Below are positions 57,423 to 60,661 of a stretch of DNA of 64,000 bases, one piece after another. The notes beneath the pieces were generated by a model. That model did no database searches and was not told the origin of the DNA. It saw only the letters and a program-made list of their open reading frames with translations. The number at the start of each line of letters is the position of its first letter. The first letter of the stretch is position 1. Source of the DNA: Chloroflexi bacterium HGW-Chloroflexi-4 (lineage in GTDB: Bacteria > Chloroflexota > Anaerolineae > Anaerolineales > Anaerolineaceae); the NCBI GenBank assembly GCA_002840715.1, contig PHBW01000005.1:1-64000 (forward strand). The letters run 5' to 3'. The position numbers and the translations under genes are program-made.

Positions 57423-58298
57423 ATGGAAGGTTATTCACATTTCTGTAAAGATGAATGGGTACTTAAAGCGCTGCTGGATAACATTGGAGACAGCGTTTAT
57501 ATAAAAGATCGTGAATGCCGGTTGTGGCGTATCAGCACAAAAATGGCAAGTTATTTTGCAGAAAATGGCATTACCGATATCTATGGCAAAACCGATATTG
57601 ATCTATTCGGCGAATCTTTCGGCAGAAAGACCATGGTAGACGATAAGCAGGTGATGGAAACCGGTCTGCCAAAATTAAGCCTGATCGAAAACCATGTTGA
57701 CAGCACAAGCAGTGAAACCAATTGGACCTCCACCACCAAGTTGCCAATTTACAATGACCGCGGTGAGGTCGTTGGTCTATTAGGCATCACACGAGAAATT
57801 AACGAGTTGAAAAACTCCGAGATCGGGTTCCAATGGCTGGCAACGCATGATTCTCTTACATCTCTTGCCAACCGCTTCATGCTCTCTGATCGGGTTGAGC
57901 AGGCGATATTTCATGCCAAAAGAAACAATAGTCTTTTTGCATTGCTTTTTATTGATCTGAACGGATTTAAGGTAATTAACGATAAAGCTGGCCATGCCAT
58001 GGGGGACTTTTATTTAAAAAAAGTTGCCCAGACGCTTACCAAAAATGTGCGCTCTTCTGACACTGTAGCGCGCATCGGCGGTGATGAATTTGTGGTACTG
58101 CTGGATGGTATTGCCAGCATTGAAGAACCGGTCAGGGTGGCAGACAAACTCAGCGACATTATCCGCAGGTGGGTGGATGAAGAAGAACACAGCGTCACAG
58201 CCGCCATAGGCATAAGCACCTACCCGGCTGACGGAGAAGACGCGGAATTGTTATTAAAAGTAGCAGATCATGCCATGTATCTGGCAAAAAGCAAGTAA
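57423..58298 (+). CDS. PAS-GGDEF diguanylate cyclase
   Basis: 291 residues, soluble. A PAS domain (about 12-130, with SVYIKDRECRLWRISTKMASYF and GEVVGLLGITREI) precedes a GGDEF domain (about 135-290). The active loop is RIGGDEFVVLLDG and ATHDSLTSLANRFML is the domain start. It should make cyclic di-GMP in response to a signal sensed by PAS. No RxxD inhibitory site is evident before the GGDEF loop. A palindromic motif and a promoter follow the stop. Confidence 0.92.
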   Translation: MEGYSHFCKDEWVLKALLDNIGDSVYIKDRECRLWRISTKMASYFAENGITDIYGKTDIDLFGESFGRKTMVDDKQVMETGLPKLSLIENHVDSTSSETNWTSTTKLPIYNDRGEVVGLLGITREINELKNSEIGFQWLATHDSLTSLANRFMLSDRVEQAIFHAKRNNSLFALLFIDLNGFKVINDKAGHAMGDFYLKKVAQTLTKNVRSSDTVARIGGDEFVVLLDGIASIEEPVRVADKLSDIIRRWVDEEEHSVTAAIGISTYPADGEDAELLLKVADHAMYLAKSK

Positions 58299-58302
58299 TT
58301 CG

Positions 58303-58322
58303 CTTTTTTTCTAGAAATAATT
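58303..58322. repeat. palindromic intergenic motif, copy 5
   Basis: Core TTTCTAGAAATAATT, five bases after the cyclase stop. Confidence 0.55.
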
Positions 58323-58333
58323 ACAGAAAATCC

Positions 58334-58361
58334 TTGACAATCTGTGAGCTTGTGCGATAAT
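58334..58361 (+). promoter_or_regulatory. promoter of the RNHCP leader
   Basis: TTGACA (58334-58339), 16-nt spacer and GATAAT (58356-58361). The expected transcript starts near 58368, about 297 nt before the RNHCP start codon. Confidence 0.75.
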
Positions 58362-58491
58362 TCTGTCCGTTGTAAATTTCAATGGAAAGGTGTTTTTTGT
58401 TTAATTTCGTATCGGTCATTGTAACCACACTTAATGCAAGGGTGCGCCCGTAAGAAAAGGCTCAACCAGTTTTTGGTTTATACTTTTTCTG

Positions 58492-58525
58492 CCACGGATG
58501 CTCACTTGCACCGTGGTTTGTTTTT
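58492..58525 (+). terminator. first terminator-like hairpin in the RNHCP leader
   Basis: CCACGG-A-TGC pairs with GCA-CCGTGG around a 6-nt loop, followed by TTTGTTTTT. Confidence 0.7.
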
Positions 58526-58617
58526 AAGACGTACGATGACCGTTTTTCACCCATTGAAGTGTTAGACGTCCCCCAAAGTTCAGTCTTCATTTAATCAGTC
58601 ATTTTGATTAAAGACAG

Positions 58618-58652
58618 CCCGCCACGGTTAACTCCACGGCGGGTTGTTTTTT
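58618..58652 (+). terminator. second terminator-like hairpin, 12 nt before the RNHCP start codon
   Basis: CCCGCC (58618-58623) pairs with GGCGGG (58638-58643), with GG/CC inside, and is followed by TTGTTTTTT. The ribosome site GGGG and the ATG at 58665 come directly after. Confidence 0.7.
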
Positions 58653-58664
58653 GTTGGGGTACCC

Positions 58665-59324
58665 ATGAAACATAAGCATAACACGCGGTTTAACCAGGAT
58701 GAGTTCCTTGAAGCCGCTTTTGAAAAAAGAAATAAACAAAATTCCCACCGGTGGGAGGATAATTATCGCGAAGAACCACGACGCGACGGCAAGGTCTACG
58801 AAAAAGGATTCACCTGCGCGCAGTGCGGATTCTCAGTCACAACCTCGAGAGAACAGTCGGGGGTCAATAACCGCAACCATTGTCCGCGCTGTATGTGGTC
58901 AAAACATGTGGATGAGTTTAAAGCGGGCGACCGAAAAGCGGAGTGCAAGAGCCGAATGCAGCCGATAGGGCTGACGCTCAAGCAGTCACCAAAACGCTAC
59001 AATCGCGAAACTGCCGGAGAACTGATGTTGATCCACCGCTGCACCGGCTGCGGCAAGCTTTCTATCAACCGCATCGCCGCGGATGACGATGCCGTCGTGA
59101 TCTATCAGATATTCAACCGTTCATTAGGGCTTACCGAAAAATGGAAGGAATTGTTGAAAGACGAGGGTATCCGTTTATTGGGCAGTACCGATTTGACCGT
59201 GGTTTATTCACAGTTGTTCGGCTGGCAGAGCATACTTGGCGAGTTTGAACCTCACGGCATGATTGTGGATGAAACAAGCTTGATCCCCTTTGAACCGGAG
59301 TCTGAGATGGTAGGGTTGGAATAA
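58665..59324 (+). CDS. RNHCP-domain zinc-ribbon protein
   Basis: About 219 residues. FTCAQCG then NNRNHCPRCMWSKHVDEF is the name-giving RNHCP motif with two Cys pairs. GDRKAECKSRMQPIGL and the second ribbon HRCTGCGKLSINRIAADD follow. Basic N-terminus. The family is widespread, but its function is unknown; four Cys pairs suggest zinc and nucleic-acid binding. The C-terminal third is not conserved in a way I recognise. The ATG at 58665 follows GGGG. A long leader suggests control by attenuation. Confidence 0.85.
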   Translation: MKHKHNTRFNQDEFLEAAFEKRNKQNSHRWEDNYREEPRRDGKVYEKGFTCAQCGFSVTTSREQSGVNNRNHCPRCMWSKHVDEFKAGDRKAECKSRMQPIGLTLKQSPKRYNRETAGELMLIHRCTGCGKLSINRIAADDDAVVIYQIFNRSLGLTEKWKELLKDEGIRLLGSTDLTVVYSQLFGWQSILGEFEPHGMIVDETSLIPFEPESEMVGLE

Positions 59325-59422: not shown

Positions 59423-60271
59423 CTATGCCGGTTTCTCTGCGGAAATGTTGGCGCTGAATACCGTCTTTTTCAAGTCCTCAATGCTTAGATTGCCTTTGTA
59501 ATCCGCCTGCTGGATGGCATCAGCAACCATTTCTTCACTAAAATAGACCGGCTTTAAAGTAATGTTGGTAAACCCGGTCTTCTTTAATAATGTGGACATG
59601 GAATCAGCATCCATGGCGCCGGCGATGCAGCCAGCCCAGGCACTCATACTGGCTTTCACCTCGTCTGGCAAGTCTCCGCTGGTGACAATATCGCTCACAG
59701 CCATGCGCCCGCCTGGTTTAAGCACACGCAAGATTTCGCGAAGTACCTGCGGTTTGTCGGTGCTTAGGTTGATTACACAATTTGAAATGACCACATCCAC
59801 TGAGCTGTCTGAGACGGGCAGATGCTCAATTTCACCCAAACGGAACTCGACATTTTCAGCCCCCACCTTGACCTTGTTGGCTCGCGCTTTATCAAGCATT
59901 TCGGGGGTCATATCCACACCAATCACTCTGCCCGTCGGACCGACCTTCTTGCCAGCCAAGAAGCAGTCGATACCGCCGCCCGAGCCAAGATCAAGGACGG
60001 TTTGACCGGGTTTGAGTGAAGCCAGTGTAACCGGGTCACCGCAGCCCAGTGAAATATTGGTGACATCCTCTGGCAGGGCATTGAAATCTTCAGCTTGATA
60101 AAGTCCTTTGGTGGATGGTTCTGCTGCTGAAGCGGAATTACCGCAGCCGCAAGTGCTGCCTTTTCCACCACTTCCACAACAGCCGCTGGCGTTTCTGGCC
60201 GCGCCGGCATAATGTTCTCTGACCGCTTGGCGGACTTTGATATCTTCTTTATTAATTGTTTGACTTGACAT
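59423..60271 (-). CDS. arsM: arsenite methyltransferase
   Basis: 282 residues. A class I SAM methyltransferase (VLDLGSGGGIDCFLAGKKVG) with the three cysteines that bind As(III) in ArsM. They lie in ISLGCGDP, SNCVINLS and AWAGCIAGAM. An extra Cys-rich N-terminal stretch (CCGSGGKGSTCGCG) may pre-bind metal. It converts arsenite to methylated forms. GGAGG stands before the ATG at 60271. It is downstream of arsR on the same strand, so probably arsenic-induced. Confidence 0.93.
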   Translation of the reverse strand: MSSQTINKEDIKVRQAVREHYAGAARNASGCCGSGGKGSTCGCGNSASAAEPSTKGLYQAEDFNALPEDVTNISLGCGDPVTLASLKPGQTVLDLGSGGGIDCFLAGKKVGPTGRVIGVDMTPEMLDKARANKVKVGAENVEFRLGEIEHLPVSDSSVDVVISNCVINLSTDKPQVLREILRVLKPGGRMAVSDIVTSGDLPDEVKASMSAWAGCIAGAMDADSMSTLLKKTGFTNITLKPVYFSEEMVADAIQQADYKGNLSIEDLKKTVFSANISAEKPA

Positions 60272-60331
60272 AGTTCCTCCAATTACTATATTGATATATT
60301 TATATACTTCGATATGAGAGGGTAAAAATTT

Positions 60332-60622
60332 TTAGCTTGCTGGGTTTTTTATATCCACATCAGGCGCAAAAACTTCCGCAATCTGGCAGCATGATGAAGC
60401 CATTCTTTCCTGATTAAGGCAATAGTAAATCTCCTTCCCACGACGTTCAACATTTACCAAACCTGCTTCCCGTAGAATCTTAAGGTGATGAGAAACCGTG
60501 GGTTGGGTCACTCCGGTCTGTTCAACAATGTCATTCACATTTAAAACACTGCAGCAACAAATTCGCATAATTTGTTGCCTGGTTTCATCTGCAATGGCTT
60601 TGGCAAAGCTGACTGTACTCAT
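60332..60622 (-). CDS. arsR: ArsR-family arsenic-type repressor
   Basis: About 96 residues. Winged helix with QTGVTQPTVSHHLKILREAGL as recognition helix and ICCCSVLNVNDI, where consecutive cysteines take the place of the As(III) site ELCVCDL in ArsR. A second CC pair near the C-terminus (SSCCQIA) may contribute. The ATG at 60622 is preferred over an ATG at 60661, since the intervening stretch overlaps the promoter. An operator is between the -35 and -10 boxes, so it represses itself and arsM. Confidence 0.88.
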   Translation of the reverse strand: MSTVSFAKAIADETRQQIMRICCCSVLNVNDIVEQTGVTQPTVSHHLKILREAGLVNVERRGKEIYYCLNQERMASSCCQIAEVFAPDVDIKNPAS

Positions 60623-60632
60623 AATAAAACAA

Positions 60633-60661
60633 TTATATATAGATAAGTATCTATTTGTCAA
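60633..60661 (-). promoter_or_regulatory. arsR promoter with palindromic operator
   Basis: On the minus strand TTGACA (60656-60661), 18 nt, TATAAT. The spacer holds ATAGATA-N2-TATCTAT (60639-60654), a perfect palindrome of the ArsR type. The -10 box ends nine bases before the arsR ATG. Confidence 0.72.

Follow-up and report, generated by a model that had tools for sequence, protein, structure and literature searches.

The leader of the RNHCP gene in the window, the 64,000-nt stretch analyzed here (contig PHBW01000005.1 of Chloroflexi bacterium HGW-Chloroflexi-4), most probably controls transcription by ribosome-mediated attenuation, in the manner of erm and hflXr leaders, a reading to which we give a probability of roughly 0.78. 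In this reading, a ribosome stalled early in a short upstream ORF (uORF) would block termination, and RNHCP, or in relatives also an RsgA paralogue (RsgA2), would be switched on. The leader represents a new family with new cargo, of a known kind of control. Judging from comparison with related leaders, it is real, and its conservation and structure go beyond what the original prediction could show.

Promoter and Leader

The gene under control of the leader encodes a 219-aa RNHCP protein (PF12647; 58665–59324, plus strand) starting with ATG at 58665. Upstream of it, a sigma-70-type promoter is located at 58334–58361 on the plus strand, consisting of TTGACA (58334–58339), a 16-nt spacer and GATAAT (58356–58361), from which transcription is expected to start near 58368. 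This promoter carries 11 of the 12 consensus letters in a consensus scan; in 58250–58720, one such site was found against a shuffle mean of 0.8, a single site being not above chance. A promoter with at least 10 of the 12 letters of TTGACA/TATAAT recurs at the equivalent place in 32/41 related leaders, compared with 1.6% of shuffles, and an exact TTGACA is found in 29/41, compared with 0.9% of shuffles, the 41 leaders being related and hence not independent. The promoter that the original prediction placed at 58334 is therefore present as described and recurrent. The prediction also regarded the approximately 297-nt leader as non-coding, which does not hold, since the leader contains a uORF at 58397–58453 that is conserved as an open frame.

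The part of the leader that begins at 58397 has a more stable fold than its dinucleotide shuffles (z −5.6; 200 shuffles). Fourteen leaders can be aligned from promoter to start codon (the window, L002–L008, L010, L011, L112, L118, L121, and L122), and the predicted arrangement of the RNHCP gene behind a structured leader with mutually exclusive folds is conserved in all of them. A riboswitch or another known Rfam family was rejected as an identity for the leader: only a tRNA exceeded the threshold in the whole window, the best match in 58300–58680 was ncr1175 with 18.2 bits against a threshold of 60, and none of the 14 related loci gave a match at the gathering score, in agreement with the earlier statement that no known riboswitch consensus is recognizable. 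Beyond RNHCP, on the minus strand (59423–60661), a methyltransferase gene, arsM-like by eye, and a gene for an ArsR-type regulator (Pfam) are located.

Upstream ORF

The uORF (58397–58453, plus strand) starts with TTG, has 18 codons (MFNFVSVIVTTLNARVRP, with the first residue read as Met) and ends with TAA, and is preceded by a Shine-Dalgarno (SD)-like AAAGG at 58386–58390. An alternative earlier start is an in-frame ATG at 58382, which has no SD. A short ORF behind an SD-like or purine-rich stretch is found in every one of the 14 aligned leaders. With TTG or GTG starts read as Met, the encoded peptides are, for example, LFNFVSVIVTTLNARVRP in the window, LFNFASVIVVTLNAGVRL in L007 (the RNHCP locus of Leptolinea tardivitalis YMTK-2), LNNIASVVVVILNAGTCL in L010, LSNFASVVVSTFNAGTCLSGL in L118, VFNSFVSVIVSRNGWCLRP in L112, and MSNLASVLFENRAAWARRLNAG in L011. 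Among the 41 leaders, an AGG/GGA-type SD-like motif precedes the chosen uORF start in 38 (it is absent from L173, L185, and L205), and the chosen start is ATG, GTG, or TTG in 40. Within the set of 14, L122 is exceptional in having ATC at the aligned position. Frame 0 is open across 12 codons in 40/41 leaders, compared with 23/41 and 10/41 for the other two frames, in a count for which the starts were picked with the open frame in view; the exception, L188, has a uORF of 11 codons. The length ranges from 11 to 24 codons, mostly 13–24, and L190 alone has 46. Lying between the promoter and a terminator-like hairpin and conserved as a reading frame, the uORF has the placement of a leader-peptide ORF in an attenuator.

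Codons 6–9 of the window's uORF (58412–58423, plus strand) encode S-V-I-V, the proposed stall site. S-V-[LIV]-V occurs within the first 12 codons in 19/41 leaders and the strict core [AV]SV[LIV]V in only 15/41 uORFs, while a looser Val-rich pattern covers 34/41; the other seven do not fit even this loose pattern. Among 28 non-redundant loose cores, the third position of the Val codons has an entropy of 1.97 bits. Because the pattern used to find the cores demands V and thereby favors GT, the weight rests on this third-position freedom and on the open frames. Substitution tests on ten window-type uORFs, and also on six lineages, were not significant for synonymous and BLOSUM substitutions (P 0.15–0.36), and the absence of stops was borderline (P 0.04–0.05). 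The IFVI motif, the place of which is taken by S-V-I-V at codons 6–9 in the window, is found in none of the 41 peptides, and a conserved Arg/Lys-X-Arg/Lys (R-X-R, +X+) motif was not found across them; R-V-R or R-M-R at codons 15–17 is common to the window and L002–L005 only. By eye, ORFs upstream of RNHCP in L161 and L167, from the same phylum, contain RFASVLV, which is near the Anaerolineae core FASVIV.

Mutually Exclusive Helices

Segments 1′, 1, 2, 3, and 4 of the leader constitute a chain of mutually exclusive helices that leads from the uORF to the terminator-like hairpin. Segment 1′ (GCGCCCGT, 58444–58451) is the 3′ end of the uORF and the partner of segment 1 (CCACGGATGC, 58492–58501), which is also the 5′ arm of hairpin H1; segment 2 (ACCGTGG, 58510–58516) is the 3′ arm of H1; and segment 3 (CCACGGT, 58622–58628) can pair either with segment 2, as an antiterminator, or with segment 4 in hairpin H2, all on the plus strand. 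Five helices were counted on the alignment of the 14 leaders against shuffles and slid controls, and since the leaders are related, the shuffle results are not probabilities.

For 1′:1 (58444–58451 with 58494–58501), 105/112 cells are paired (93.8%) with five double-change cells, compared with 54.5% at most in the slid controls, and its covariation of 0.305, against 0.196, was reached by 0/500 shuffles. In the 41 model-aligned leaders, 86.6% of 322 cells are paired with nine double changes, again with 0/500 shuffles, in-register pairing being poor in L188, L190, and L191. The window's own 1′:1 contains a single mismatch, and the duplex is energetically no more favorable than shuffles (z −0.6); the median z in the leaders of rsgA/RNHCP type is −2.1, with values below −1.5 in 22/35, the 35 being those of the 41 leaders in which a script located H1. 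The outer six pairs of H1 (1:2) are invariant in the 14 leaders and two added inner pairs are each formed in one sequence, while H1 is paired in 97.5% of cells in the 41 leaders. For its inner bases, segment 1 finds partners in 1′ and only very rarely in the 3′ arm of H1; that these bases track the end of the uORF is as expected of an alternative pair. Judging from these alignments, the pairing that decides the fate of the H1 5′ arm is the one with segment 1′ inside the uORF, which had been missed in the original prediction.

For 2:3, all 98/98 cells are paired and the covariation was reached by 0/500 shuffles. Its end pair is C-G in nine leaders, U-A in four (L002–L005), and A-U in the window, so that this change of pair sits among the nearest relatives. 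H2 (3:4) is paired in 87.9% of cells with 13 double-change cells, and its covariation was likewise reached by 0/500 shuffles. The covariance check on related leaders that had been suggested for this locus therefore came out positive for 1′:1, 2:3, and 3:4. The predicted alternation of CCGTGG with copies of CCACGG corresponds to the covarying 2:3; there is a single CCGTGG (58511), and the three copies of CCACGG are located at 58492, 58622, and 58634, two of them in the H2 stem. The 9-bp long-range helix between arm 0 (CGGTCATTG, 58413–58421, inside the uORF) and arm 0′ (CGATGACCG, 58534–58542), both on the plus strand, which had been proposed to enclose a hairpin domain, is present and 80.7% paired, but its covariation was equaled in 122/500 shuffles, and as the main switch it was rejected for this reason.

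As to the hairpins, H1 (58492–58525, plus strand), with a T-rich tail, would serve as anti-antiterminator and possibly as a first terminator in the window, and H2 (58618–58652, plus strand), with a T tract, is likely an intrinsic terminator. Both are found with T-rich tails where they had been predicted, and H2 indeed ends 12 nt before the start codon at 58665, with a covarying stem. The U tract of H1 is weak (TTTGCATTTAA) in L006, L007, L008, L010, and L118, and conservation therefore extends to the hairpin but not to a first terminator. By eye, the H2 tail is U-rich in 13/14 leaders, with L008 being poor. A consensus terminator scan of the plus strand listed neither H1 nor H2.

The original prediction considered an RNA that senses a ligand or a protein, with the reading frame then being incidental. 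The very stable fold and the strong conservation within one genus, loops included, are in keeping with such a riboswitch-like element. The loops, however, differ between genera, no Rfam family matches above threshold, the frame of the uORF stays open across leaders and its Val codons are unconstrained at their third positions, and the partner in the switch is the 3′ end of the uORF. Since switch pairs that run through the end of a uORF are the layout of ribosome-mediated attenuators, ligand or protein sensing is not the best reading of the leader, and we regard it as very improbable.

Proposed Mechanism

In the proposed ribosome-mediated attenuation, RNA polymerase would start near 58368 and transcribe the uORF, and a ribosome translating it to the end would cover segment 1′ (58444–58451). 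With 1′ masked, segment 1 would pair with 2 (H1) and 3 with 4 (H2), and transcription would stop before RNHCP. A ribosome stalled early, at S-V-I-V of codons 6–9, would leave 1′ free; this would take segment 1, so that segment 2, thus freed, would take segment 3, the terminator H2 would not be formed, and RNHCP would be transcribed. In relatives, the same switch would act ahead of an rsgA paralogue that encodes a second such GTPase and has RNHCP behind it.

Minimum-energy estimates are −9.2, −16.8, −14.1, and −22.1 kcal/mol for 1′:1, 1:2, 2:3, and 3:4, respectively. When the site of a stalled ribosome is masked, the minimum-energy fold still contains 1:2 and 3:4, and the RNA is not flipped; while the helices from uORF to terminator are mutually exclusive and covary, the absence of a flip at equilibrium implies that the switch must be kinetic, decided by the order of synthesis. 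The SD region of the uORF is complementary to 1′ in L226, L201, and L202 (e.g., GGAGCGCGCT/AGCGCGCTCC in L226). Such complementarity would add one more OFF-state helix in the rsgA type. As a general feature SD:1′ pairing was rejected, since z is below −1.5 in 12/35 rsgA/RNHCP leaders and the pairing is absent in the window (z 0.6).

If the uORF sensed a scarce charged tRNA, for Val or another branched-chain amino acid, the RNA would switch by the same logic, and many uORFs have two or three Val/Ile codons together. There is, however, no long run of one codon, Val is rare in certain uORFs (L191, MANKTSVSAEK; L212, MAKKAPVCFEF; L185, MFKFASVFGF; first residue read as Met), and the controlled genes, those for RNHCP and the RsgA paralogue, are not biosynthetic. 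Amino-acid attenuation is therefore an unlikely account, albeit the first to be considered after drug- or stall-responsive attenuation. For the latter, the inducer would likely be an exit-tunnel drug (macrolide-like) or something else that makes elongation stall early. This is a guess by analogy, made because the V/I-rich core near codon 9 recalls ErmCL and because of the other genes found behind similar leaders (see below). In the case of ErmCL, the ribosome stalls at codon 9.

Relation to Known Leaders

The closest counterpart is the rli80 leader of hflXr (lmo0762) in Listeria monocytogenes, where a paralogue of HflX is placed under a transcription attenuator with a 14-codon uORF (PMC6310831). 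The two systems share a short uORF, an RNA that would here too provide anti-antiterminator, antiterminator, and terminator for transcription attenuation, and control of a second copy of a ribosome-associated GTPase; the leader-controlled RsgA paralogue would stand to rsgA as HflXr stands to HflX (PMC6310831). They differ in the peptide, which has an RLR motif and 14 codons in hflXr and a Val-rich core and mostly 13–24 codons here, and in the controlled genes, which here are RNHCP and the RsgA paralogue (PMC6310831). Similarly, uORFC-6-1 upstream of hflX in Bacillales combines a uORF with a covarying RNA, there before the gene of a rescue factor for stalled ribosomes (PMC8632094); it belongs to another phylum and has an Arg-Leu-Arg peptide and another gene, and the main text of that paper makes no mention of rsgA, Chloroflexi, or Anaerolinea (PMC8632094).

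The hydrophobic, V/I-rich stretch ending near codon 9 resembles those of ermC, whose leader peptide ErmCL is MGIFSIFVI (PMC5915450), and of erm(A) and erm(T), in which an IFVI motif is combined with an IR2-IR3 switch (PMC11836684). The core here, S-V-[LIV]-V or looser, resembles IFVI in kind and place only. The alternation of IR1:IR2 and IR3:IR4 with IR2:IR3 in the erm leaders is also similar, but these act on translation by releasing the SD, whereas a terminator-like hairpin lies ahead of the gene here (PMC11836684). In the leader of msrD, a ribosome stalled on the leader peptide msrDL prevents a Rho-independent terminator, which is the outcome proposed here as well; msrDL is a different peptide and its stalled ribosome obstructs the terminator itself, while a chain of alternative helices is inferred for the present leader (PMC10314930). 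For rsgA, there is one mention, in a table, in a study of organisms that produce inhibitors of protein synthesis (PMC9290621). Searches of the openly licensed literature found nothing on RsgA together with leader peptides, attenuation, and antibiotics, and no uORF attenuator in Chloroflexi among the matches listed. The present leader would thus extend uORF attenuators with covarying multi-segment RNA to Chloroflexota.

Leaders Before RNHCP and rsgA-RNHCP

A covariance model covering the region from the SD to H1, with the H1 pairs only (R1), was used to search 147 Anaerolineaceae genomes and 346 genomes of the class. In the class set, 11 genomes have a match with E ≤ 0.01, among them that of the window and two further members of the family. 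Of the best 30 R1 matches in the family, 27 share a contig with RNHCP or rsgA-RNHCP and lie upstream of it. According to coordinate comparison, the leader directly precedes RNHCP in 13 of the 57 RNHCP-bearing genomes among the 147, and precedes rsgA followed by RNHCP in 20. The other 24 genomes have no such leader adjoining RNHCP, and 13 of these belong to one genus (g17) with another context. If H1 and H2 were leftover hairpins and RNHCP were read through at a constant rate, there would be no regulation at all. The covariation of the alternative helices 1′:1 and 2:3, the recurrence of the promoter in related leaders, and the recurrence of the whole unit before rsgA-RNHCP all argue against this, and we give it hardly any weight compared with attenuation by a stalled ribosome.

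There are some irregular cases. In G109, the leader (L195) precedes an rsgA that is 57% identical to rsgA of L184, and RNHCP is cut by the contig end. In G022, the rsgA copy behind the leader (L190) is broken and carries an in-frame TGA, and no RNHCP match was found in the genome; H1 and H2 of this leader are apparently merged into one hairpin. G004 has an intact-looking leader (L180; 1501–1639, minus strand), and no RNHCP was found in the genome or at the locus. A relative of arsM adjoins this leader on the other strand, as it does after RNHCP in the window, and is 57% identical to the window's protein at 59423–60271.

RsgA Paralogue

The RsgA under control of the leader appears to be an accessory paralogue distinct from the ordinary one, because the two are separated in a tree and because most genomes with the leader-rsgA-RNHCP arrangement have a further rsgA. 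The tree of RsgA domains contained 20 leader-linked copies and a subset of 21 unlinked copies (20 plus L227). Nineteen of the 21 unlinked domains group in a single clade (100/99), the branch of which has a length of 1.13, apart from the 20 leader-linked ones, while the other two (G019b and G028c) fall outside this clade on long branches; the labels require two changes on the tree, compared with approximately 14 in shuffles. At least one further rsgA is present in 16 of the 20 leader-rsgA-RNHCP genomes, and the other four are 71–77% complete. In the genome of the window, a single rsgA exceeds the cut-off; it is located elsewhere and has no such leader. Among the seven genomes counted that have the leader before RNHCP alone, G003, G009, G013, G115, and G020 have one rsgA, whereas G025 and G116 have two despite this arrangement. 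Four genomes without RNHCP (G002, G015, G034, and G064) have one rsgA each.

Similar Leaders Before Other Genes

In Anaerolineae, weaker and mostly partial R1 matches are also found before genes for GNAT acetyltransferases (L201, L203, L207, L211, L213, L215, L216, and L222), RIO-like kinases (L199, L206, L214, and L225), and ABC (L204, L219, L221, and L224) and MFS (L218) transporters. The genes behind L199, L201, L203, L204, L218, L224, and L225 were examined with Pfam, and the rest were named by eye. Letters similar to those of 1′, 1, 2, and 3 are present in these leaders. Their uORFs are mostly longer, many of them ending with RIAPV or RSAPV at 1′, where a different frame is thus used for the same letters of the RNA. 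The median z of the 1′:1 duplex is −1.7, with values below −1.5 in 9/17, the 17 being those of 19 leaders in which a script located H1. Possibly, the leaders of the GNAT, RIO, ABC, and MFS genes constitute a lineage-wide stall-response set.

RNHCP Protein

To our knowledge, RNHCP proteins have no assigned function. The product of the window's gene matches PF12647 with 93.4 bits (cut-off 24). In 37 sequences, C51, C54, R70, H72, C73, C76, C94, C126, and C129 are invariant, and N71 and P74 are nearly so; the motif RNHCP is present as well. The only matches of the RNHCP profile among solved structures were eL42/L44e, with E-values of 0.042 and 0.17, which are not significant, and this likeness is a lead, no more. 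An AlphaFold model (mean pLDDT 74.5) gave no match in the PDB with E ≤ 0.001, and the name RNHCP in the openly licensed literature returned, by title, chemistry only.

The leader itself resembles switches that turn on protection genes when ribosomes are jammed by antibiotics, and this suggests what RNHCP may be for: a stall-sensing leader indicates when the protein is made and so points to a testable role, action on the ribosome, with the linked RsgA paralogue as a partner for joint testing. Tentatively, and at somewhat less than even odds, RsgA2-RNHCP may be a new drug- or stall-induced module for ribosome protection or recycling. RNHCP would then be a ribosome factor of zinc-ribbon-like type, produced solely when ribosomes become jammed near the start of the leader peptide, partnering the RsgA paralogue as HflXr does. 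The attenuator design, in turn, would have been passed on within Anaerolineae to genes for acetyltransferases, efflux, and RIO kinases, making up an antibiotic response network of the whole lineage.

According to record titles, RNHCP proteins are found in several phyla. By eye, RNHCP is also located behind short ORFs in Clostridia (L065, L067, L072, and L079) and Spirochaetes (L077 and L081), and the Clostridia loci have GGGAGG/CCTCCC repeats that could cover the SD of RNHCP.
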